Source: a virus. Taken from it: a stretch of 24,488 nt of DNA. Positions 2,830 to 23,130 of the stretch are shown here, one piece after another; position 1 is the first letter of the stretch, and each line of letters opens with the position of its first letter. The position numbers and the translations under genes are program-made. The notes under the pieces were generated by a model. The model searched no databases and had not been told where the DNA came from. It saw only the letters and a list, made by a program, of their open reading frames with translations. The stretch lies in IMG/VR virus record IMGVR_UViG_3300010354_000624, positions 1 through 24,488 of that record. One strand, 5' to 3'.

Positions 2830-4173
2830 ATGCCAGACATGCACGGCAGCGACATAACCAAGGCAGGAGATTACAAGATCAGTAAAATGGTCTTGAAGTC
2901 CGGCATCAACGAAAAGTATGTTGATATCCGTGGACTGTACACCAACTTTGAAGTGTTTGAGGACATGTTTTCTCCGTACATCACCGCAAAGATATACATG
3001 ATTGATTCGGTGAATCTGCCTGAGCAGTTACCGATCCGAGGTCAAGAAACCCTTGAACTAGAGTTTGTAACGGATTTTTCCGAAGTGAAACCCGTGAAAA
3101 AGACATTCAAGGTGTACAAGATAGACAGTCAGATCATAGACGACAACGGCAGAGGACAGGAATATGTGCTGCACCTCATCAGTGAGGGTGGTTACTTCAA
3201 CTACACCGAAAGGTGCGGGTATTCTGTGAAGGGAAAGGTGTCAGAAATGGCACAAGAAATATTTAAGAAGCACTTCCCGGAGTATTTGTGGAAAGACAAA
3301 CTGGACATAGAACAAACAGCCGACAACTTTTCTTTTGTCCTTCCGTGGGGATACAGTCCTTTCAAGGCACTTACTTGGCTTGCCAGAAAAGCAGTCGTTG
3401 GAGTGGACACAGACTACTCTCCCTTTTTCTTTTATGAAAGCATGGATGGATACAAGTTCAAGAGCCTGAACAAGATCATAGAGGACGGAGAGAAGTTCAA
3501 GGACAAATACTATTTCGTAAAAAGCAATGTAAACAGAAATATCGAAAACAATGAGGGGTCTGGCATAAAGACCGGAAGTGCATCCAAACTTCCAAGCATG
3601 TACCATCGCATACAGAGTCTGAAAGAGGATATGCGATTTGACATGATTGAAAACATAGGTTCGGGTGTGATTGGCTCTCATATGACCGTTCACGACATGA
3701 TGCGGAAGGAAAAAAGAGAGTACTATTTCAAGGAATCTGACATCTTTGAAAAGGTCAAGAAGATCGGAAAGAATCCACATTACATAAAGAGTGACACCAA
3801 AGAGAGCAACGAATTTTTCGAAAAGAGCAATTCAGCATATTTCTTCGTGCCATTTACTCCATACACGGTGTTCACGGACTCTAATCAGATTACCGACAAC
3901 TCTAGGGTGGAGGAGTATTTCCTGAACCGGAAGTACATGGTCAACACCATGCTTACGCAAAAACTTGTCGTGGAGATTTACGGCGACAGTGAAAAGCGAG
4001 TGGGACAACTGATGGAGGTGTTTGTCCCGAAGGTTGCTGCGGATGGTCACCTTTTAGATGAACCGGAAGACAAAAACCTGAGCGGAGACTACATCATCAC
4101 ATCAATATGTCATCGGTTTGGCAAGAAGTACGCTTGTCGCATGGAACTGTCTCGTAATTGCATGGGAGTATGA
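2830..4173 (+). CDS. 27: Baseplate hub protein, gp27-like
   Basis: Probable trimeric hub ring that carries the gp5 spike, equivalent to T4 gp27 (391 aa) and to the first half of type VI secretion VgrG. Seen: a beta-rich N-terminus with a membrane-facing style opening (ISKMVLKSG...YVDIRGLYTNFEVFEDMFSP), IYMIDSVNLPEQLPIRGQE, an FKVYKIDSQ strand, and a helical middle with KALTWLARKAV. The C-terminal beta strands end in GDYIITSICHRFGKKYACRM, typical of the last strand set of gp27/VgrG hub domains. Sequence identity to T4 gp27 is low, so the call rests on this pattern, the size (447 aa) and its position directly before gp5. GGGAG at 2817-2821 precedes the ATG. The stop lies two bases before the gp5 start. 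Confidence 0.8.
   Translation: MPDMHGSDITKAGDYKISKMVLKSGINEKYVDIRGLYTNFEVFEDMFSPYITAKIYMIDSVNLPEQLPIRGQETLELEFVTDFSEVKPVKKTFKVYKIDSQIIDDNGRGQEYVLHLISEGGYFNYTERCGYSVKGKVSEMAQEIFKKHFPEYLWKDKLDIEQTADNFSFVLPWGYSPFKALTWLARKAVVGVDTDYSPFFFYESMDGYKFKSLNKIIEDGEKFKDKYYFVKSNVNRNIENNEGSGIKTGSASKLPSMYHRIQSLKEDMRFDMIENIGSGVIGSHMTVHDMMRKEKREYYFKESDIFEKVKKIGKNPHYIKSDTKESNEFFEKSNSAYFFVPFTPYTVFTDSNQITDNSRVEEYFLNRKYMVNTMLTQKLVVEIYGDSEKRVGQLMEVFVPKVAADGHLLDEPEDKNLSGDYIITSICHRFGKKYACRMELSRNCMGV
4164..4168 (+). promoter_or_regulatory. Ribosome binding site that sets the gp5 start
   Basis: GGGAG lies six bases before the ATG at 4175. The reading frame is open further upstream to an ATG at 4118, but that would overlap the end of the hub gene by 56 bases and add 19 residues with no counterpart before the OB fold. 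The site supports the shorter form. Confidence 0.6.
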
Positions 4174-4174
4174 A

Positions 4175-5278
4175 ATGAGAGAATTTGCAGGCAAAGAAGG
4201 ATTTTTCTGGTGGCATGGAGTGGTGGAGGATGTTGGTGATCCTCTCATGCTTGGGCGGTGTCGTGTTCGCATATTCGGATACCACTCGGACGATTTGATT
4301 GAATTGCCTACGGAGGATTTGCCGTGGGCATACCCCATGCAGCCTATAACAAGTGCTGCTCTTTCGGGAATAGGAACATCTCCCACCGGACTTCTTGTTG
4401 GTTCTCATGTTTTTGGTTTTTTTCGAGATGACGAAGAGGGGCAAGACCCTGTTGTGTTGGGTTCTTTCGGCGGAATTCCTGCAAAGAACCCGGACAAAGA
4501 GAAGGGGTTTTACGATGCTTCAAACAGGTATCCTCCGACACAGGAAGGTGTTGACGAAAAAAAATATCCGATAGGAGTGTCCATAGCAGATGAACAAGAC
4601 ACAAACCGATTGGCTAGGAATGATTCTCCTGATTTGATTCAGCAGACAGTCGTTGGGTTTAAAAAGGCATCACTGAAGCAAAACATAAAGAGTGTGCCGG
4701 ATATGAAGAGTAGGACAGAGTGGAGCGAACCGCCGACCCCATATGCTGCTGTGTATCCTAAAAACCATGTTCGGTACACCGAAAGCGGTCATGTTCAAGA
4801 GTTTGATGACACTCCCGGTGCAGAGAGAATACACACTCTACACAAATCAGGTTCGTTCACGGAGGTGGGAAACGGATGGACAGACAGCGGTGATCCAGAC
4901 GGAACAAAAGTTGAAAAAATTGTTGGAAACGGGTATGAGATTTGTCTTGGCGACAAGATGGTATACATCGCAGGCTCGGTTGGTTTGAACCTTGTTGTTG
5001 ACGGGGCTGTAAATCTGACCATAGGCGGTGGAGCAAATATTCAGGTGAGTGGTGATGCTAATATATTGGCTAAGAACAATATCAGCCTGCAATGTGAGGG
5101 AGACTTCAAGGCATCAGCAAACAAGATGGAGTTTTTCTCTGCTGGCGATGTGGGGTTCTCAGGAAAATCCGTATCGTTTATAACAGATGGTGGTGTCATG
5201 GTGGTATCTCAATCGGGACGGGTAGAAATCAATTCAGGCGAACCAACGGTAAGACCAGCCAAGGTCAATGTTCAGTAA
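4175..5278 (+). CDS. 5: Baseplate spike protein gp5, lysozyme domain absent
   Basis: Trimeric spike below the hub that punctures the outer membrane. Seen in order: an N-terminal OB fold (about 1-105) with WHGVVEDVGDPLMLGRCRVR, LPTEDLPWAYPMQPITSAAL, SGIGTSPTGLLVGSHVFGFF and VVLGSFGGI, all close to T4 gp5; a linker (106-190) with a conserved-looking GFYDASNRYP; a segment YTESGHVQEFDDTPGAERIH (201-220), again as in T4; and a C-terminal beta-helix (about 255-355) in eight-residue steps such as LTIGGGAN, IQVSGDAN and ILAKNNIS. T4 gp5 (575 aa) has a lysozyme domain between linker and helix. Here only about 85 residues separate OB fold and helix entry, and no lysozyme catalytic pattern is visible. 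At 367 aa it is a pure spike. A run of eight A (4557-4564) lies in the linker without breaking the frame. Confidence 0.92.
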   Translation: MREFAGKEGFFWWHGVVEDVGDPLMLGRCRVRIFGYHSDDLIELPTEDLPWAYPMQPITSAALSGIGTSPTGLLVGSHVFGFFRDDEEGQDPVVLGSFGGIPAKNPDKEKGFYDASNRYPPTQEGVDEKKYPIGVSIADEQDTNRLARNDSPDLIQQTVVGFKKASLKQNIKSVPDMKSRTEWSEPPTPYAAVYPKNHVRYTESGHVQEFDDTPGAERIHTLHKSGSFTEVGNGWTDSGDPDGTKVEKIVGNGYEICLGDKMVYIAGSVGLNLVVDGAVNLTIGGGANIQVSGDANILAKNNISLQCEGDFKASANKMEFFSAGDVGFSGKSVSFITDGGVMVVSQSGRVEINSGEPTVRPAKVNVQ

Positions 5279-5287
5279 GGAGGCAGC

Positions 5288-5554
5288 ATGGGGAGGGTAT
5301 GCAGGGCTAACATAGATACAGCGGGAGGAATTATTTTGGAGGGAAGCAGAACGGTATTGATTGACGGGTTTCCTGTTGCTCTTGAGGGAAATAGGATAGA
5401 GGATCACGGAACGGGAGAACACGACAACGCAATTGCCGTAAACGGAACTCCACGACTCATCATAGACGGAATTCCCGTCATAGTGGAAGGCATAAGCAAG
5501 GGATCGTGCGGTCATCCGGCAGTGTCTTCCTCTTCATCGGTTTTTGCAAACTAA
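5288..5554 (+). CDS. 5.4: PAAR-repeat spike tip protein (T4 gp5.4 type)
   Basis: Small protein that sharpens the end of the gp5 beta-helix, as in T4 gp5.4 and type VI secretion PAAR proteins. Seen: 88 aa, short repeated hairpins (ILEGSRTVLIDGFPVALEGN and LIIDGIPVIVEGISKG), a GEHDNAIAVNGTP turn, and GSCGHPAV near the end, the usual place of the PAAR-type motif. Cys5, His40, His45, Cys74 and His76 are candidate ligands for the tip metal ion; family members use His and Cys, but which of these bind cannot be decided by eye. A strong ribosome site AAGGAGG (5277-5283) overlaps the gp5 stop. The position immediately after gp5 fits this role. Confidence 0.87.
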   Translation: MGRVCRANIDTAGGIILEGSRTVLIDGFPVALEGNRIEDHGTGEHDNAIAVNGTPRLIIDGIPVIVEGISKGSCGHPAVSSSSSVFAN

Positions 5555-5564: not shown

Positions 5565-6413
5565 ATGGCAGATGTAGGCCCAACACCAGAGTGCCCGTGC
5601 AAAGCAGCCCTTTCTGACGAGAGGAAGAATGCTCTTAATTGGGGTCGGAACAATCCTGTTTTTCAGAACCCCATGCTTGATCGTATTAGCAACGCGCAAG
5701 GAGCGTTTGCTGATTCCAAGGCAAAGGTAGACAGTATCATTGGAGCATTGGGTGCGCTTCCGGGCGCACAGGTTGGTCAATTGCAGCAATTGTCCAACAC
5801 GGTTGGAAACATGCAAGGCATACTATCCAACTACGCAAACGAATCAAACAGGCTTTCGGGTCTACCATTTACCGGAAGTGGCCCTGATTTGCTGTCATTG
5901 GTAAGCACAGTTGGTGCTGCCATCAATTTTCAGTGCGCTTTAGGAATAGAAGGTCTAGATGTTGGATTGGGTATCGGACTGATGATGGAAGACGGCAAAT
6001 TAAAACTCAATGTTGCTCTGAATGTACAAGCGGATTTGAGCCGGATACTAGACCAAATTGACACTAACGGTGCAGTAGGAGATATTATGAATAAGGTTAA
6101 CAGCCTAGCAGCGGATATTGGAAATGCGGTTACCGCTATCAATAATGTTGCGGGTGAAATCAATCAAGCACTTGCAGAAGTAAGCAAATTGTACGATGAT
6201 GCCTTGAATTTCATATCGCAATTCACAAGCATCAATTTTGCAATAGATTTTTCGAATGACCCCTGCACGAAGTTTGGTGTAGGCTTTCAGCAAGGAATAC
6301 TGAATCCGGCATTCATAGATCAGGCACGAGCAGCAAATCCTCTTAATCGCGCACAGAACCCCGGATTTGGAGGATTCCCGAGCGGCGGTGGGTTCGGGAG
6401 TACATTTCGATGA
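5565..6413 (+). CDS. Unrecognised 282-aa protein in the spike region
   Basis: I do not recognise this protein. Seen: a Cys-Pro-Cys at residues 10-12, then long helical stretches rich in Ala, Asn, Gln and Gly (about 30-105), a short hydrophobic part (LGIEGLDVGLGIGLMMEDG, about 125-145) followed by likely strands (KLKLNVALNV), more helix with heptad-like spacing (about 155-225), a second Cys region (NDPCTKFGVGF) and a Gly/Phe/Pro-rich end (PGFGGFPSGGGFGSTFR). There is no signal peptide and no clear membrane helix. Its place between the PAAR tip and the wedge genes, and its expression in the same operon, suggest a virion or assembly protein. A hub-associated or spike-delivered role is a guess. 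The stop overlaps the next start as ATGA, which suggests translational coupling. Confidence 0.72.
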   Translation: MADVGPTPECPCKAALSDERKNALNWGRNNPVFQNPMLDRISNAQGAFADSKAKVDSIIGALGALPGAQVGQLQQLSNTVGNMQGILSNYANESNRLSGLPFTGSGPDLLSLVSTVGAAINFQCALGIEGLDVGLGIGLMMEDGKLKLNVALNVQADLSRILDQIDTNGAVGDIMNKVNSLAADIGNAVTAINNVAGEINQALAEVSKLYDDALNFISQFTSINFAIDFSNDPCTKFGVGFQQGILNPAFIDQARAANPLNRAQNPGFGGFPSGGGFGSTFR

Positions 6414-7084
6414 TTTTGGGAGATGACCCCGGTTCAGGGGCTGGTATGCTCAAAGACTTTATTTTTCATTTTGGAGAACTTGCTGGTGCGCTGGTTTTTG
6501 GAATGCTGATAGGGGTGGTGTCTATCATCAAGAAAAACAAAATAATGGACAAGTGGTCTGCTAAAACCGAAGCATCCAAGATTACAGCACACACGCGAGT
6601 ACACGAAAGCCTAACAGAACTCCGCGTCATGGTTCGTGCAGGCAGGGCACTTATATTTCAGTATCACAACGGCGGCAAGTTTGCAGACGGAACTTCAATA
6701 AAGAGGTTTTCAGTTACTCACGAATCGTGTTCCACGGGAATAATGAGCATGATGATGGAATCTCAGGATGTGTTGTTGACTCGTTACATGGAACTCATAT
6801 CGCTTATAGACGAAAAGCCAAATAAAATCATTGCGGTTTCTAGCCTACCCGACTGCTCGTTCCGTTCAATTCTTGAGATAAATAATGTCGTGTATTTTTC
6901 GGTTGGAAGCCTTAAGTGCGAGGACGGGCTTACACCTATGGGATTTGTGTGCTGTCATTGGTGTGATGTTACGGAGTTGGACAAATTGCACGAAGAAGGC
7001 TTTGACGATGATGCCTTGCAGGATGTCATAAGGAACAGTATCCATACCATCAATAACCATCTGATACACACGAAAACCACCTAA
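6410..7084 (+). CDS. Membrane-anchored protein with GAF-like domain
   Basis: Seen: a short N-terminus, one hydrophobic helix at about residues 19-40 (LAGALVFGMLIGVVSII) followed by KKNK, a charged helix with HESLTELRVMVRAGRALIFQ (66-84), then YHNGG (85-89), FADGTSIKRFSVTHES (91-106) and a later strand pattern VVYFSVGSL ... MGFVCCHW (160-184). The 'helix, ALIFQYHNG, F-x-T-HE' order resembles a family of bacterial and phage proteins with a GAF-type fold, as far as I can recall; the match is to a pattern, not a verified hit. Positive charges after the helix suggest an N-out, C-in membrane protein with the domain in the cytoplasm. Cys181, Cys182 and Cys185 form a small cluster. GGGAG at 6396-6400 supports the ATG at 6410; Met13 is an alternative start. 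A membrane protein inside a baseplate operon is unusual. Function unknown. Confidence 0.75.
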   Translation: MILGDDPGSGAGMLKDFIFHFGELAGALVFGMLIGVVSIIKKNKIMDKWSAKTEASKITAHTRVHESLTELRVMVRAGRALIFQYHNGGKFADGTSIKRFSVTHESCSTGIMSMMMESQDVLLTRYMELISLIDEKPNKIIAVSSLPDCSFRSILEINNVVYFSVGSLKCEDGLTPMGFVCCHWCDVTELDKLHEEGFDDDALQDVIRNSIHTINNHLIHTKTT

Positions 7085-7506
7085 TGCCAAACTACATCGG
7101 AACAAATCAAAAAACTGCTGCCAAAGATCCAGTGTACACTGATCTTGATGCAGAGATGCTGTTGAATCCAAAGACCAGTGATTTGATGATTGTTCAGAAC
7201 TCCAAATCCATTCGTAGATCAATTCTCAATCTTTTGTCCACTTCTTATGGAGAGAGATTGTTTCAGCCAAATATCGGCTCTTCTTTGCGTTCGCTCTTGT
7301 TTGAACCAATTGATCCGGTTACCACTTTTGAGATAAAGGATCGTATCATACGAACGCTTCGAAACCACGAACCACGAATTGGAAGTCTCAGGGTAGATGT
7401 GATTTCAAATCCCGATGACAATTCATATGTGGTGGATGTTGAGTTTGGGGTTCGTGCCACCGGAGAGAAAGACAAGATCAGAACAGTTCTAGAGAGGATT
7501 CGCTGA
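7084..7506 (+). CDS. 25: Baseplate wedge protein gp25
   Basis: gp25 sits at the inner wedge where sheath contraction starts; TssE is its type VI secretion relative. Seen: 140 aa (T4: 132), VQNSKSIRRSILNLLSTSYG (37-56), GERLFQPNIGSSLRSLLFEP (56-75), a helix FEIKDRIIRTLRNH and the signature Glu-Pro-Arg at 96-98 (NHEPRIG), then a beta hairpin SYVVDVEFGV. The EPR motif and the YGxR-F-P-xG-S-L order are hallmarks of the family. The ATG overlaps the upstream stop (TAATG), with no clear ribosome site before it, so re-initiation after the preceding gene is likely. Confidence 0.95.
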   Translation: MPNYIGTNQKTAAKDPVYTDLDAEMLLNPKTSDLMIVQNSKSIRRSILNLLSTSYGERLFQPNIGSSLRSLLFEPIDPVTTFEIKDRIIRTLRNHEPRIGSLRVDVISNPDDNSYVVDVEFGVRATGEKDKIRTVLERIR

Positions 7507-9377
7507 TGGCACAGAACAATACCGTAAATGTGGTTGGTCTTGATTTCGAGAACATCAAGACATCACTGAAAACCTATCTTCAGTCACAATCCACACTCAA
7601 AGACTATAATTTCGATGGATCGGTTCTGAACATATTGCTTGATGTGTTGGCATACAACACTCACTATCAAGCATTCTATTCCAACATGGTGGCAAATGAG
7701 ATGTTCTTGGACAGCGCACTTTTGCGTCCGTCCGTGGTGTCTCATGCAAAGCATTTGGGGTATGTCCCGTCTTCAACCAAAGCGTCCAAAGCGGTGGTGG
7801 ATGTGTTCCTAACTACAGCAGCGTCTTCAGACACATACCTCCCGAGGGGAACGGAGTTCGGAGGCACGAATCCTGCGGGAACAAGATACAAGTTTGTCAA
7901 TCTTGACACTGTTTTTGCGGATGCAGGGGCAACTGCATTTTCTCCTGTTACTTTGTATGAGGGCAGTCTTCGCCGCATAACATACATCTACAACCGAAAC
8001 ACAAAAATAGGTTCTTATCTAATCATTCCCAATGATAAGGCCGACATGAGTACTCTTCGTGTTAGGGTGTACAAGTCCGTTACCGACACCACCGGAATAG
8101 CGGATGTGTGGACAGATGGATCGCAGTACCTTACACTTGACTCTACGAGCAAGGTGTATTTCATCCAAGAGAAGGACGCTGGAATATACGAGGTTTACTT
8201 TGGAGATGGTGTGTTGGGTCAGCAACCCGAAACCGGGAATGTGGTTATGATTGAATATGTGGAAACAAACGGTCAATCCGCAAACGGGGTTGATTCGTTC
8301 ACCAAAAGCGATGCAGCAATAAGCAAAATAGAGTTTCATCCCGATCCTGAAACCGGAAGCACGGCTTCTGCTTCGTTTGGTGGCTCGGATGCGGAGAGTG
8401 TTACCAGCATAAAGTACAACGCTCCCAAATTCTATCAGACCGGAAATCGTGCAGTAACCGAAAACGATTATGCTGCTCTGGTGTTCAAGAAATATCCAAA
8501 CATTTCCTCTGTGAATGTGTACGGCGGGGAAACCGTGACCCCTCCTCAGTACGGCAAGGTTTTCATTGCCGTAAAACCAAAATCGGGTGGAGTGCTTACA
8601 ACCGGAGAAAAGGTCAGCATTGAGCAAGACATACGCAGAAGCAATTCTATTGTTACCATAGTCCCGAAAGTGGTCGATCCCGAGTACACCGATTTGGTTT
8701 TTGAAACCGTGGTGACCTATGATGCGGACAACCTTCCGGTTTCCTCAAGTGTCTTGAAAACCCTTGCGGTGTCCTACATTTTCGGTTATTCCGGTGCAAA
8801 ATTGGAGCAATTCGGAAAAGACTTCTATTTGTCCAAGATGCAAGAGGGGCTTAACAACCTTCACCCATCGGTTTTGGGTGTGTACTCCAAAATAAAACTA
8901 AGGAAGACCGTTGACGCTTCGGTGGTCATAAAAAACAAGTCCCATGAGTTCAACTTCGGCAATCCCATTTTCCACCCCCACGAAAACAATTATGCCACTG
9001 TTTTTTCCAACAGGTTCGGTCACCGTGATTTGACCGAAACACTGCAAGAAGACTGCATGTTGGAAGACAACGGTTCGGGTGTTGTGAATGTGGTGCGAGT
9101 TGATCCAAACAACCCGGACAATCACATCGTGGTATATCCTTCGGTTGGAACCGTGGACTATGCTGCGGGAATAGTTAGGTTGAATTCCAAATTCGTTCCA
9201 GACACAAGCACAAGTGGATCATCTGCTTTTCCGATAATCGTATCAGTGGAGCCTGAAATCACGAACATATACGCAAACGAAAATCAGATTCTTCGCGTGA
9301 ACACATCGTATACGGACTCTGTGGTGGTTAGAACCACAACCGAAACAGCAGAAGCCGCACTAAATTCATTGAGATAA
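7506..9377 (+). CDS. 6: Baseplate wedge protein gp6
   Basis: gp6 forms the continuous inner ring of the T4 baseplate and is related to the J protein of P2. Seen: 623 aa (T4: 660), an N-terminal segment with YNFDGSVLNILLDVLAYNTH, NMVANEMFLDSALLRPSVV and SHAKHLGYVPSS (about 33-90), then beta-rich middle parts with VYFGDGVLGQQPETGNVVMI and SIKYNAPKFYQTGNRAVTEN DYAALV (family-typical 'AP.....nRavt..DY' stretch), and a late FGHRDL region. These are typical of gp6/J-type proteins. TGATG couples it to gp25; GAGAGG at 7492-7497 is a usable ribosome site. The next gene starts one base after its stop. Confidence 0.93.
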   Translation: MAQNNTVNVVGLDFENIKTSLKTYLQSQSTLKDYNFDGSVLNILLDVLAYNTHYQAFYSNMVANEMFLDSALLRPSVVSHAKHLGYVPSSTKASKAVVDVFLTTAASSDTYLPRGTEFGGTNPAGTRYKFVNLDTVFADAGATAFSPVTLYEGSLRRITYIYNRNTKIGSYLIIPNDKADMSTLRVRVYKSVTDTTGIADVWTDGSQYLTLDSTSKVYFIQEKDAGIYEVYFGDGVLGQQPETGNVVMIEYVETNGQSANGVDSFTKSDAAISKIEFHPDPETGSTASASFGGSDAESVTSIKYNAPKFYQTGNRAVTENDYAALVFKKYPNISSVNVYGGETVTPPQYGKVFIAVKPKSGGVLTTGEKVSIEQDIRRSNSIVTIVPKVVDPEYTDLVFETVVTYDADNLPVSSSVLKTLAVSYIFGYSGAKLEQFGKDFYLSKMQEGLNNLHPSVLGVYSKIKLRKTVDASVVIKNKSHEFNFGNPIFHPHENNYATVFSNRFGHRDLTETLQEDCMLEDNGSGVVNVVRVDPNNPDNHIVVYPSVGTVDYAAGIVRLNSKFVPDTSTSGSSAFPIIVSVEPEITNIYANENQILRVNTSYTDSVVVRTTTETAEAALNSLR

Positions 9378-9378
9378 A

Positions 9379-12300
9379 ATGCCAGACATAAAGAACATAG
9401 TTCTAAGCACTCCCGCCGAAGCACTTGAGGGCATTCTGTCTCCATTCATAGAGGATCAGTTTCCTTCTTTTGCGAGAAGCGATTACAGAAAACTCATTCT
9501 GTTCATTAAGGCATATTACGAGTGGTCTGAAAAACAAGGAAATCCGTCTTTCGTCAACAGCAAATTGGGCGAAGTCATGGATGTAGACAATAGCCTTGAG
9601 CAGTTTTATTCCCATTTCAAGTCTCAATATTTGGACTCCTTTCCCGAACAACTTGCTGTCAGCGTTGAGGGATCATCACCAAACCGCAGAACACTCGTAA
9701 AAAAGATCAAGGAGTTCTACGGGGAAAAGGGAACGGAAAGCGCGTATCGTTTCCTGTTCAGGATACTGTATGACAGCAATGTTCAGTTTTTGTATCCCAA
9801 GAACTTCATACTTCGAACATCTGACGGAGAGTGGATCGAAGAGAAATCCGTGAAAGTGACTCGTCAAAACGAGCAGTATCACGATGATTTGGTTGGAGGA
9901 CGCATAGAGCAGTACAACGGAACCGTGCTGACTGGCTCTGCAAACATAGATCGTGTGTTCAAGTATTATCAAGACGGTGTTCCTGTAACAGAATTGTTTT
10001 TGACGAGTATTGTTGGAACCATATTGCCAAATCAATCGGTTGTATTGTCTTCAGCATCAGACAGCGGAGTTTCACCGTTCACGGAAACAACTTTCAGCGT
10101 TCTTGGTGAGTTTTTCGTGCAAACACCGGGAGCCAACTACAGCGTTGGAGACACTGTTTACATTTCTGCTGCTGGCGTTGGGTTCTCTGCCAAAGTAGAG
10201 CAGACGGGTCTTGCAGGAGCAGTGAAGCGGATCAGAATCGAAAACTCCGGCGTGAATTATTTTGACTCGGTTACCGCACTTGTCGTGAGCGCAAACGGAA
10301 CAAACAACACTGCTCGTGTTCTGCTGTCACCGACCGCAATCACCAATTACCCCGGATACTACAAGGGTAACCGTGGCAAGATTTCTTCCACGCAAAAACT
10401 GTATGACGGCGATTTCTATCAAGAGTATTCCTACATTCTGAAGTCCGCTGTCAGCATAGACAAATACTATTCCATTCTTCGTAAACTTATTCATCCAGCA
10501 GGAATGAAAATGTTTGGCTCCATACTTCTGGAGTCCGTGGTTGATTCTCCTTCGGGTGGATCAAGCCAAGTCACCCGTGTTGGTGTTCCCGTTCTTGGAA
10601 ATTACACACCGTATACGCTTGGAACCACATTTGACTTGCGGAACAACGGTGTAACTGCTACTGGTCGTTGGTTCTTCAACGATGGCCCGGGAGGCAGTGG
10701 TGGCATTACGCGAGGGGCAACAGGTGACTTGTATCCTGTTGGTTACAATCCGTACATCGGGTCTTCCGCCGAAATTGGGCCTAGCGGCATTTCTTCACCC
10801 ACCGGAACTCTTTTCCGCATGGGTGGAAGCGGCGGATTTACAGGGCTTGGGTACACATATTGCTTTGTTCCCGAGGGTGGCAGAACCGCACATAATCCGT
10901 TGGGTGCGCCACTTGGTGGAATAACCGCATGGCTGCGGTTTGCCGAATCCAAACTTACGCCGGATGTCGTTGGAACTTCTCCAAAAGCAGTGGTGGGTCT
11001 GACCCTGTGGCTGAAGCCAGAAAACATTGGTGTGTGCGGCGGATCAATGATCACTGGTCGGTGCATGGACATCTGGCGGGATGCTTCCCCTTCGCAAAAT
11101 CACGCTCTACCTCCAAAGTGGAGCATGTGGACAACCAATCCTTCGTTCACGGGAGTTACTGTTGACAAACTTCGACCGACACTGGTCGTTGCTGATCGCG
11201 GAATCGCTGGACGAACAGGAATACAGTTTAATGGTGGTGTGGTTTATGGCCCAAATACTATATGGTTGCAAGCGGGGGTTTGCGGAGGACACACCGCAGG
11301 AACCACTCTGGGTGCATTGGCTTCAGACATTCCTTTTGAACCGGGAAAGACGGGAGAACGAATCCTATCAGGTCAGTTTTTCACGCTTACTCGCGGATTG
11401 ACATTGACCAAGGACATGACGGCTTTCATTGTGTTCAGGGCAGGAGTCACGGCTAATGGTGCTACGGCAACTGGATACACCGGATCCAATCACGGCTTGG
11501 GATTCGTGTCATCAGACAAGCCGTTCCATCAGTTTGCACCTGCAACCATGTACTACCCGTTGTTTGGCACGACTGATGGAAATTTGGTCACGGAGCCGGG
11601 AGTTACACTGTGGACTGATTCCTTGAGTGGAACAGGAATTGCAGTCACAGAAAATGCAAATGTCACCGATCCAAACGGAAACACCACTGCGTCATCTGTC
11701 ACATTTAACGCAGGTGCAGGAACGGCAACCCCAGATTGGGCTTTCAAGTCAAGGTTCATTTCTGATATTGCATCGGGAACACCATATACATTCTCTGTTT
11801 GGATGAAGGGTTCCGTTGGTGGTGAAAAGATCGTGGTGCGCGGTATGGCAAATACCACTTACACTTTGTGTAATCTGACCACAAAATGGCAGAGATTCGT
11901 GATCACCGAAACAGCAGCGACCACATCAGGAACCATACAAATAGGAATACGGCAAGGGATTTCGGGAATAGGAACAATAAATTCTACAGCCACTGTATAT
12001 CTTTGGAATCCCCAACTGCAAAGTGGTTCTTCGTCCACTCTGCTGACATCCGTGAGCGGAGGCGAAATCGACCACGCATTTTACAACCGTTCCTACTACG
12101 ATGTTGATATTGACTCAACCAAGCAGAACAGCACTTTCTATTTTGTAAATTCAATAACAAGCGAGTCCTTGTATCCGTATGAAACAGGTCTTGTGGGTTT
12201 CCGAAGTAATCGTGGCAGCACGGGATCAGAAAGAATTGCATACAATCCGTATCAGACAACACTCACTGGAGTATCACTGCAAAACATAATAGTGGGAGAA

Positions 12301-12918
12301 TGGAACCGATCCACGGACAGCAGAATACAGTCCTTCCACAACGGAACAGAGGCAAAAAATCTGTCGATCACTACATCACGCAGAATAGCAAGACCAACAA
12401 GCCCCGGCGGATCAAGTCAGTTCAATATTGCTGCATCAGAATCGGCATACAATTCGGAGCCTGTGTCGTTGAGCAGATTTGGTTCGTACCTCCTGCCCGT
12501 CTTGGACAGCCCATACGGGATAACAAGTGCAAACTTCGTGTCTTATGCTCTCCTGAACCCATCGTATTCTTTCCGTGGAGTCATATACGAAGTCATAGTC
12601 TATGATCGTGTTCTGACAGAAACCGAGCGACAGGTGGTGTATTGCTATCTTTCCAAGAAGTACAGGCTTGACGATGTTCTGCCGTACTCGTACACATGCT
12701 CTCATCCAAGTGCAGATGTGATTGGATTTGCGTATTGGGACATTTCAAAACACCCGAACGCAGCAGGAAGCGCGAACATTCTTGCCGGAACTTCATTCGG
12801 AAACATCACTATTCAGGACTTCCTTAATCTGTACGGAATCATTTACAAATCGGCAGGAACCCGCCTGTCTGACGGAACCGTACTGACCCAAGATACATAT
12901 ACGGTACTCGGAGAATAA
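9379..12918 (+). CDS. Large baseplate wedge protein with LamG-like and carbohydrate-binding-like insert
   Basis: Fills the place of T4 gene 7 between genes 6 and 8, but I do not see T4 gp7 sequence. Seen: residues 1-390 are a phage structural domain with FIKAYYEWSEKQGNPSFVNS, DVDNSLEQFYSHFKSQYLDS, a helix KIKEFYGEKGTESAYRFLFR and LRKLIHPAGMKMFGSILLES (HPAGM at 372-376), a pattern I recall from large cyanophage baseplate proteins. Residues 390-535 are Gly-rich. LTLWLKPEN (541-549) and VYDRVLTETERQ to KKYRL (1074-1098) are typical opening and closing stretches of concanavalin/LamG-like domains. Between them, 745-883 (WTDSLSG, TPYTFSVWMKG at 801-811, TTKWQRFVIT, YLWNPQLQSG at 874-883) resembles a carbohydrate-binding jelly roll. 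The inserted domains point to glycan contact at the baseplate rim, an inference. The start lies one base after the gp6 stop. Confidence 0.82.
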   Translation: MPDIKNIVLSTPAEALEGILSPFIEDQFPSFARSDYRKLILFIKAYYEWSEKQGNPSFVNSKLGEVMDVDNSLEQFYSHFKSQYLDSFPEQLAVSVEGSSPNRRTLVKKIKEFYGEKGTESAYRFLFRILYDSNVQFLYPKNFILRTSDGEWIEEKSVKVTRQNEQYHDDLVGGRIEQYNGTVLTGSANIDRVFKYYQDGVPVTELFLTSIVGTILPNQSVVLSSASDSGVSPFTETTFSVLGEFFVQTPGANYSVGDTVYISAAGVGFSAKVEQTGLAGAVKRIRIENSGVNYFDSVTALVVSANGTNNTARVLLSPTAITNYPGYYKGNRGKISSTQKLYDGDFYQEYSYILKSAVSIDKYYSILRKLIHPAGMKMFGSILLESVVDSPSGGSSQVTRVGVPVLGNYTPYTLGTTFDLRNNGVTATGRWFFNDGPGGSGGITRGATGDLYPVGYNPYIGSSAEIGPSGISSPTGTLFRMGGSGGFTGLGYTYCFVPEGGRTAHNPLGAPLGGITAWLRFAESKLTPDVVGTSPKAVVGLTLWLKPENIGVCGGSMITGRCMDIWRDASPSQNHALPPKWSMWTTNPSFTGVTVDKLRPTLVVADRGIAGRTGIQFNGGVVYGPNTIWLQAGVCGGHTAGTTLGALASDIPFEPGKTGERILSGQFFTLTRGLTLTKDMTAFIVFRAGVTANGATATGYTGSNHGLGFVSSDKPFHQFAPATMYYPLFGTTDGNLVTEPGVTLWTDSLSGTGIAVTENANVTDPNGNTTASSVTFNAGAGTATPDWAFKSRFISDIASGTPYTFSVWMKGSVGGEKIVVRGMANTTYTLCNLTTKWQRFVITETAATTSGTIQIGIRQGISGIGTINSTATVYLWNPQLQSGSSSTLLTSVSGGEIDHAFYNRSYYDVDIDSTKQNSTFYFVNSITSESLYPYETGLVGFRSNRGSTGSERIAYNPYQTTLTGVSLQNIIVGEWNRSTDSRIQSFHNGTEAKNLSITTSRRIARPTSPGGSSQFNIAASESAYNSEPVSLSRFGSYLLPVLDSPYGITSANFVSYALLNPSYSFRGVIYEVIVYDRVLTETERQVVYCYLSKKYRLDDVLPYSYTCSHPSADVIGFAYWDISKHPNAAGSANILAGTSFGNITIQDFLNLYGIIYKSAGTRLSDGTVLTQDTYTVLGE

Positions 12919-20808: not shown

Positions 20809-23130
20809 ATGCCCGGAAGCACAGGACCAGACCTAAACACATTCATTATTCCCGAAGTAGAATTGGGCGACACCTTCAATTACTGGAGGGACACCACCAA
20901 TACTGCTATTTACAAACTGAACAAACTCAAGATTTACGATGCAGTTGAGAGCGGTTCTATTGGCTCTACTTACGGTTCCACAGGCGCGTGGAGAGCGGTT
21001 TTACGAGACACAGTTACAAGTGGACACACATTTTCTTCTGCAATAGTATTTGCTGGCGGCATCACTGCTTCTGCCGTTAACATCACCACTGGTCTAACGG
21101 TGGGTGGCAATCTAACGGTGTCTGGCGGTTCCACTTTCAGTGGTCGTGTTGATGCTCAAAGTGTTGCGGTTGTTGCTGGCGCAACCGTGGGTGGCAATCT
21201 AACGGTTTCGGGTGGCTCCACTTTCAGTGGTCGTGTTAATGCTCAAAGTGTTGCGGTTGTTGCTGGCGCAACCGTGAGCGGAAATCTTACTGTGAGTGGC
21301 ACAGTTGCTGTTGGTAACACACTGAATGCGTTGGGTGCAACTCTTTCCGCGCAAACAAACGCTGCCATACGAACTCGTAGTTCTGGAAATGCTTTCGAAT
21401 GGGGAAATCCCAATTCTTCTGGTTACGCTTCTGTTTTAGGATCACAGAACACCAGCGGTGCTGCTTTTGTTGGATTGCACTGTGAAAGTGGAACCGGAAC
21501 CAATCAGTACAGGACTAGAGGGAATACCGGTTGGGTGTTGGGATTGCCCAACCTAACAACACAAACCTTTCAGATTGGGTGTGTTCCCAATCCCAATGCG
21601 GACAATCAGGATGTAACCGCTCATATCAAGATAAAAACACCCGGACAGGTAATAGTCCAGAAAAATCTATCTGTTGGAACAGACACCGAATCGGTTCTTA
21701 TTACTTCATATGGAGAGTCTGTTACTATTGGATCAACTCAGGGCGGTACACTGGTTTTGCAAGACACCGACACCACTAGTGGCTACAGAAACAAATTCTT
21801 TGTGGCAAAGGACGGTGAATTGATATACGGAAGAGCCGATGACAACGGCACTTCTCCCTTAAAGCAAATGGTGATTGACCAAGCCGGAAGTGTGTCAATT
21901 GGTTCGGCTGCTGCTATTGCTGGCTCCAAATTGAATGTGCAGAATGGCGATGTGGTAGTACACAATACTTCGGCTAGTGTTACGGTGGGAATTTCGTGCG
22001 GTGCTGCCGCCAGTGTTTCGCAACTTCGACTCAGTAATGATGTTGGTCATGCAGGCTTCGTGTGGTATACCGGAAGCAATAACTCTACATACGGCAATTC
22101 CACACTAGCAATATGGAACAACAACGGCGCAACACTGAGTTTTGCAACCAACAACACTATGCGTATGCAGTTGCAGGGGCAAAACCTGTATGTGATTGGA
22201 AAGGTTGGAGCAGGAAATCCTTCACTTGCGTCAAGCCCCGCTCAATTGCAAGTGGGTGATGGTGCTTCCAAGCAATACGAGGTGTATTCTTCTACTGGTG
22301 TGATATCGTGTTCGGCGTGGGATCGTTCCATCAACAATTACCTAACCCATGAACTACTTGGAGCAACCCTACAATTTGCTACTGGAACAGACACATCCAA
22401 TGATAACTACAGACTAACCATTACCACAAAAGGAGATGTGGGAATCGGAACCACAAATCCCGGTGCTTCTTTGGATGTTCGTGGGTCGGTGTTGGTTGGA
22501 TACAACACAACCGGAAGAGTTTTGGGTGTTTCTGGAAACATAACTCTGTCTCGTCAGAGTGGTTTGCTGTTTCACGATGCCGATGACTCCCACTATGTTG
22601 GTTTCAAAGCACCAAGCACTGTAACAGGCAATGTCACATGGACTCTGCCTGCAACAGACGGATCACCGGGGCATGTGCTGTCTACAAACGGTGGAATTTT
22701 GTCGTGGAAGGCTGCTGACGGTGTTACGGGAACGGACACACAGGTACAGTACAACCAAGGCGGCGCACCCGGTGCAACAAGCAGTTTCCTGTTCCACTAC
22801 AACACTGCCGCAGGATACAGCGCAGGAACTCTTGGTGTGAGCGGCGGCGCGTATGTGTTGGGAAATGTGGGTATTGGTGTAACAGGGCAGAACATTGGTC
22901 GGCGCATCATACACGGAACCGGAGCAAACACGGCGCGTGGAAAACTTGAGGTGGTTGGAGACATTCGCATTCCTAGCGGCGGATTCTTTGTTAACTCTAA
23001 CATCACAGTGCCTGCGGGTGTGTGCGGATCAATCGGAAGCACGGAAAATGCAATTATGAGCGGAACGCTCACCGTTGCAAGCGGTGCAACACTGACCGTT
23101 GAAAGCGGCGGATCACTGGTAATTCTATAA
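20809..23130 (+). CDS. Tail fibre protein, repeat-rich
   Basis: 773 aa. Seen: an N-terminal attachment-like segment with ELGDTFNYWRDTTNTAIYKL followed by NKLKIYD (about 19-45), typical of cyanophage-type fibres; GNLTVSG-type beta repeats, including two nearly identical 29-residue units at 98-155; a long shaft with VGIGTTNPGASLDVRG (about 543-558); LPATDGSPGHVLSTNGG, common in phage fibres; and an end SGTLTVASGATLTVESGGSL. The composition (Gly, Ser, Thr, Val, Asn; few charges) fits a trimeric beta-structured fibre. No peptidase S74 domain is present, unlike the next gene. AAGGA at 20797-20801 gives the ribosome site. The fibre probably binds to the baseplate through its N-terminus and extends outward; the receptor is unknown. 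Confidence 0.85.
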   Translation: MPGSTGPDLNTFIIPEVELGDTFNYWRDTTNTAIYKLNKLKIYDAVESGSIGSTYGSTGAWRAVLRDTVTSGHTFSSAIVFAGGITASAVNITTGLTVGGNLTVSGGSTFSGRVDAQSVAVVAGATVGGNLTVSGGSTFSGRVNAQSVAVVAGATVSGNLTVSGTVAVGNTLNALGATLSAQTNAAIRTRSSGNAFEWGNPNSSGYASVLGSQNTSGAAFVGLHCESGTGTNQYRTRGNTGWVLGLPNLTTQTFQIGCVPNPNADNQDVTAHIKIKTPGQVIVQKNLSVGTDTESVLITSYGESVTIGSTQGGTLVLQDTDTTSGYRNKFFVAKDGELIYGRADDNGTSPLKQMVIDQAGSVSIGSAAAIAGSKLNVQNGDVVVHNTSASVTVGISCGAAASVSQLRLSNDVGHAGFVWYTGSNNSTYGNSTLAIWNNNGATLSFATNNTMRMQLQGQNLYVIGKVGAGNPSLASSPAQLQVGDGASKQYEVYSSTGVISCSAWDRSINNYLTHELLGATLQFATGTDTSNDNYRLTITTKGDVGIGTTNPGASLDVRGSVLVGYNTTGRVLGVSGNITLSRQSGLLFHDADDSHYVGFKAPSTVTGNVTWTLPATDGSPGHVLSTNGGILSWKAADGVTGTDTQVQYNQGGAPGATSSFLFHYNTAAGYSAGTLGVSGGAYVLGNVGIGVTGQNIGRRIIHGTGANTARGKLEVVGDIRIPSGGFFVNSNITVPAGVCGSIGSTENAIMSGTLTVASGATLTVESGGSLVIL
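21100..21273 (+). repeat. Tandem 87-bp direct repeat, two copies, inside the fibre gene
   Basis: Copies at 21100-21186 and 21187-21273 differ at 5 of 87 bases by direct comparison. Each encodes 29 residues (VGGNLTVSGGSTFSGRVDAQ then SVAVVAGAT), with Asp changed to Asn in the second copy. A diverged third start (GTGAGCGGAAATCTTACTGTG) follows at 21274. The period is a multiple of three, so copy number can change without a frameshift. Confidence 0.95.

Follow-up and report, generated by a model that had tools for sequence, protein, structure and literature searches.

A gene for a predicted membrane-anchored GAF-fold protein beside gp25 in the baseplate operon of a T4-like freshwater phage

Among the recognisable baseplate genes of a T4-like freshwater phage, one conserved gene (termed gene X) stands out as encoding a predicted membrane protein. 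The window, i.e. the whole 24,488-nt stretch of viral DNA analysed here, places it in an operon that is otherwise recognisably of the baseplate. In order, its products are the gp48 tail-tube cap, gp53, a PHROG 350 tail protein, gp5 with an OB domain, PAAR, a 282-aa protein, the protein of gene X, gp25, gp6, a wedge protein resembling gp7, gp8, a protein with DUF4815 and a 773-aa protein with no family match. The genes around gene X are as follows.

5288..5554, + strand: PAAR spike-tip protein (Pfam PAAR_motif, E=1.4e-9)
5565..6413, + strand: 282-aa spike-region protein, coiled, no family; its last 4 nt are shared with gene X
6410..7084, + strand: gene X, predicted membrane-anchored GAF-fold protein of 224 aa (open reading frame; family in >100 viral loci)
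7084..7506, + strand: gp25 baseplate wedge protein (Pfam GPW_gp25, E=3.5e-16)
7506..9377, + strand: gp6 baseplate wedge protein (PHROG 219, E=1e-159)

Gene X begins with an ATG that shares the 4-nt overlap ATGA with the upstream reading frame (stop codon at 6411-6413), and its stop overlaps the gp25 ATG at 7084 by 1 nt (TAATG); these overlaps suggest that gene X may be translationally coupled with its neighbours. The reading frame is more than a chance one, given the >100 related viral loci and a dN/dS of 0.05-0.17 in seven close gene X pairs, with one pair saturated at synonymous sites. These ratios point to purifying selection. The protein encoded by gene X has the following predicted elements.

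6473..6529, + strand: predicted membrane helix, residues 22-40 (hydropathy; conservation)
6530..6541, + strand: positive cluster KKNK, residues 41-44 (positive-inside count, 55/55 members)
6545..7081, + strand: predicted GAF-fold domain, residues 46-224 (AlphaFold2 pLDDT 92.9, pTM 0.86; Foldseek)
6548..6634, + strand: first domain helix, residues 47-75, with invariant H61, E66, E70 and R72 (model; 48-member alignment)
6644..6676, + strand: first β-strand and turn RALIFQYHNGG, residues 79-89, with invariant R79, H86 and N87 (model; 48-member alignment)
6707..6727, + strand: second β-strand FSVTHES, residues 100-106, with invariant E105 and S106 (model; 48-member alignment)
6941..6964, + strand: last β-strand GFVCCHWC, residues 178-185, with invariant G178 and W184, and C185 in 98% (model; 48-member alignment)

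The hydropathy profile contains a single hydrophobic segment, with a Kyte-Doolittle 19-mer score of 2.10 at residues 22-40 against 0.90 for the next best stretch. One such segment, scoring 1.6-2.5, is present in all 55 distinct family members; the small residues G22 and G31 are conserved within it, as are G26 and G35 in the close family. Because 55/55 members carry more Lys and Arg on the C-terminal side of the segment than on its N-terminal side, the protein is predicted to adopt an N-out topology with the soluble domain most likely in the cytoplasm, as judged from hydropathy and charge counting rather than from a trained predictor or experiment. An earlier note on this DNA had described short overlaps with both neighbours, a single N-terminal membrane helix followed by Lys/Arg (here K41-K-N-K44), and a soluble domain carrying RALIFQYHNGG and FSVTHES, all of which the present analysis recovers.

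The same note had guessed that the soluble domain is GAF-like, and structure prediction bears this out. An AlphaFold2 model of the domain, built from a 53-sequence alignment that includes Mel-JY01-type, LE1-like, P12024S-like and MaMV-like sequences, has a mean pLDDT of 92.9 and a pTM of 0.86; it is confident even with the C-terminus of LE1 visibly misaligned. In domain numbering, the modelled helices (H) and strands (E) are H2-30, E34-45, E51-62, H78-90, E95-97, H105-112, E117-124, E131-139, H142-150 and H155-178, which include the helix-strand-strand-helix-strand-helix-strand-strand-helix order of GAF domains. Foldseek comparison with the PDB produced 197 hits at E<=1e-3; the best 50 of these are either GAF domains or constructs of photoreceptors that include one, and the best PDB match listed is 7lsc_C (E=3.4e-7, probability 1.00). 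Both the fold and the order of helices and strands are common to gene X and the cyanobacteriochrome GAF domains (PDB 7lsc, 6ozb and 8k9o). Among predicted viral proteins, a phage protein named "GAF domain containing protein" ranks first (E=2.2e-14, TM 0.81). Profile search is less generous: the window protein has no match to Pfam GAF (PF01590), which appears in relatives only and always below threshold (L037, E=0.038; P12024S gp12, E=0.0091), and the best relative in the gp25-linked family scores 15.0 bits against a gathering cut-off of 22.4. The guess of the earlier note holds for the predicted structure. A previous full-length AlphaFold2 model from 19 close sequences (pLDDT 70), whose PDB matches were non-significant though mostly GAF-like, has been superseded.

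GAF domains often bind ligands. In the gene X model, Q84/H86 and S101/T103/E105, all polar and invariant, occupy alternating positions on two adjacent strands, and from this alternation they may line a putative ligand pocket. A metal site formed by CCHWC was considered and dropped, as distant members do not retain the CC pair.

How firmly gene X belongs to this operon was surveyed in related phages. A direct search of viral contigs found 38 loci with gene X, and a profile search found 137 relatives, 80 of which were retained. The order PAAR, 282-aa-type protein, gene X, gp25 and gp6 is kept in those loci that extend far enough, all of which had been fetched through gene X. As a control, loci were fetched through gp6 without reference to gene X, and only those with enough upstream DNA were counted. 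Gene X immediately precedes gp25 in 41/41 close loci (gp6 at least 48% identical) and in 11/26 distant testable loci (gp6 36-41% identical), so the position between the PAAR/spike region and gp25, which the earlier note had suggested surveying, is indeed kept in related phages. The other 15/26 distant loci have gp25 without a detectable gene X, and other proteins precede gp25 there; hence baseplates can do without gene X. A whole-contig search covered 11 contigs of loci lacking gene X and four others, and found no gene X elsewhere in those 11, which are fragments; in the three longest relatives gene X is single-copy. Among marine Kyanoviridae (S-H9-2, ACG-2014d, ACG-2014f, DSL-LC02, Melnitz and Mosig), no gene X occurs in the stretch around gp25 or gp5, and genome-contig scans, sensitive to close matches only, gave no relative.

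Pairwise divergence of gene X follows that of gp25 (r=0.915) and gp6 (r=0.907) about as gp25 follows gp6 (r=0.937), with the same median identity of 0.48 for the three genes; a p-value is omitted because the pairs are non-independent. In its inheritance, gene X resembles a core baseplate gene. Conserved order and parallel divergence are nevertheless expected of any vertically inherited neighbour, and physical contact is not proven thereby.

Beyond this clade, a chain of BLAST and HMM matches ties gene X to proteins of phages LE1, P12024S, BS-TP1, Arash, MaMV and Mel-JY01, which possess an HNG..(T/Y)xE core and, in each member scanned for hydropathy, a membrane helix; the Arash and P12024S relatives differ in having more positive charge ahead of the helix. 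Their gene neighbourhoods are diverse. Leptospira phage LE1 gp48 directly precedes an M23 endolysin gene with a 4-nt overlap, Nonlabens P12024S gp12 directly precedes an endolysin followed by a GTA-type holin, and Bacteroides BS-TP1 gp129, annotated as GAF, has an endolysin three genes downstream. Salmonella phage Arash gp232 sits in a tail cluster of virion proteins, and the Microcystis MaMV and Mel-JY01 relatives occupy other neighbourhoods. The window protein matches PHROG 14038 (E=3e-8) and PHROG 30125 (E=4e-6), and the Mel-JY01 and P12024S relatives match PHROG 38864 too; these three families have no recorded function, and those of their members identified here come from other gene neighbourhoods.

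Taken as a whole, we favour, at a probability of roughly 0.4, the reading that gene X encodes a membrane-anchored core companion of this clade's baseplate, either an assembly tether or a minor virion protein. The product would be a single-pass inner-membrane protein, with its C-terminal GAF-fold domain most likely facing the cytoplasm. Made beside gp25, it would most likely bind a baseplate component, and the cytoplasmic domain, by holding that component, would tie baseplate assembly to the membrane; alternatively, it may stay on the completed baseplate, as a minor constituent of the virion. The computations support this reading with the hydrophobic helix, the modelled GAF fold, the fixed gene order, purifying selection and a divergence that tracks gp25 and gp6. 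The otherwise recognisable baseplate operon speaks for it too, as does Arash gp232, a distant relative placed among virion proteins and itself detected in virions. Against it count the distant loci that have gp25 without a detectable gene X, and several distant relatives that adjoin lysis genes, not baseplate genes.

Those lysis-associated relatives (LE1 gp48, P12024S gp12 and BS-TP1 gp129) speak for gene X as a sensor or regulator in the infected cell, a rather doubtful alternative in which the GAF domain would bind a small molecule or a partner protein and time lysis or another late event. The frequency of ligand binding among GAF domains and the invariant polar residues on neighbouring strands would suit such a role, yet the window has no lysis gene, gene X is locked to gp25, and the neighbours of other relatives vary. 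The reading also draws on an analogy with the T4 holin T, whose soluble domain is the regulatory part bound by antiholin RI. The globular domain of T is reported to be regulatory and dispensable for holes (PMC12162936).

Alternatively, gene X might encode a component of the particle that inserts into the inner membrane of the host during infection and acts in DNA entry or against superinfection, which we consider quite improbable. Its operon consists of virion genes, and proteomics of purified Arash virions is reported to have covered 100% of gp232, through 9 unique peptides and 172 spectra (PMC10585845). The Arash list is broad, however: with many enzymes among its 116 proteins (PMC10585845), it argues only weakly that gp232 has a place in the virion. 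The earlier note had proposed that the protein would function in the infected cell rather than as part of the particle. While its GAF fold, single anchor with Lys/Arg and conserved place stand, that part of its reading is not established, in view of the inheritance of gene X like a core baseplate gene and the detection of Arash gp232.

It is very improbable that gene X is an accessory gene for host takeover or anti-defence that has settled in this operon: a membrane anchor and a sensor fold would suit interference with host signalling, but genes of that kind do not typically hold a nearly fixed position, evolve slowly and diverge in parallel with the baseplate genes, as gene X does. The evidence in fact parts a core gene from an accessory one better than it parts the baseplate, regulator and entry readings from one another.

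The T4 T-type (class III) holin deserves a closer comparison. Like T4 T (PDB 6px4, 6pxe and 6psk), gene X is predicted to have the class III holin layout of a single membrane helix followed by a helix that runs into a globular domain of similar fold, and Foldseek matched the model to the class III holin of Proteus phage Stubb (E=6.2e-5), the T holin of Serratia phage PS2 (E=7.3e-4) and the Proteus phiP4-3 holin (E=1.7e-3), with a TM of ~0.5 for the holin matches. However, a Pfam search of the window protein down to E<=1 did not return PF11031, nor was this family found in seven related contigs. The endolysin families PF00959, PF08291 and PF13539 were not found in seven related contigs. In profile-profile comparison of gene X with nine T holins and T4 T, between 8 and 19 of 60 controls with shuffled columns did as well, and homology to T holin is therefore not claimed. 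T4 T is N-in with a periplasmic C-terminal domain, the opposite of the topology predicted for gene X in 55/55 members, and the two genes differ in place. The N-terminal amphipathic helix, which is cytoplasmic, and R34, an Arg before the membrane helix, are reported to be essential in T (PMC12162936), whereas the N-terminus of the window protein is short and acidic, without an R34-like Arg, and its hydrophobic moment is lower (0.49 versus 0.68 in T4 T). As these N-terminal features are absent, the predicted topology is opposite and the profile comparison failed against controls, we state a resemblance in fold to T, not membership of its family. A literature search found no paper tying T holin to GAF. 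A 145-aa multi-hydrophobic protein lies beside a 101-aa lipoprotein-like protein at L247:13034-13786 (contig of L002, 93.0-93.8 kb) in a 147-kb relative; the pair has no Pfam match and is a possible separate holin/spanin set. That gene X itself is a class III holin is accordingly the least probable of the readings.

A broader proposal, which we regard as unlikely, is that phages possess a widespread and undescribed class of membrane-anchored GAF-fold proteins, of which the T4 T regulatory domain would be a diverged cousin and one branch would serve baseplate morphogenesis as a membrane sensor linking tail assembly to the cell membrane. Should gene X be a sensor related to T4 T, it would suggest an origin for the regulatory half of class III holins. 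Should it instead tether assembly to the membrane, the site and manner of contractile-tail assembly would become testable in one gene. Either way, a PHROGs family listed without function gains a predicted fold and residues to mutate.

Further observations concern other proteins of the operon and of related loci. The gp5 homologue (window 4118-5278, 386 aa) has Gp5_OB as its only Pfam domain, with no lysozyme domain detected. The PAAR protein of the window has only 88 aa; at two other loci (L265:1115-3127 and L271:1124-3121), the PAAR domain opens a protein of ~670 aa, the other ~590 residues of which have no Pfam family. In the wider clade, the 282-aa protein (5565-6413) diverges much faster than its neighbours, at ~30% identity versus ~55% for gene X. 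The first ~275 residues of a 1179-aa protein (window 9379-12918) match baseplate wedge PHROGs, and the remainder gives mostly scattered or no matches. The 773-aa protein (window 20809-23130) has no Pfam or PHROG match, and its gene carries an 87-bp tandem repeat at 21096-21294 (2.3 copies) and a 24-bp repeat at 23060-23118.
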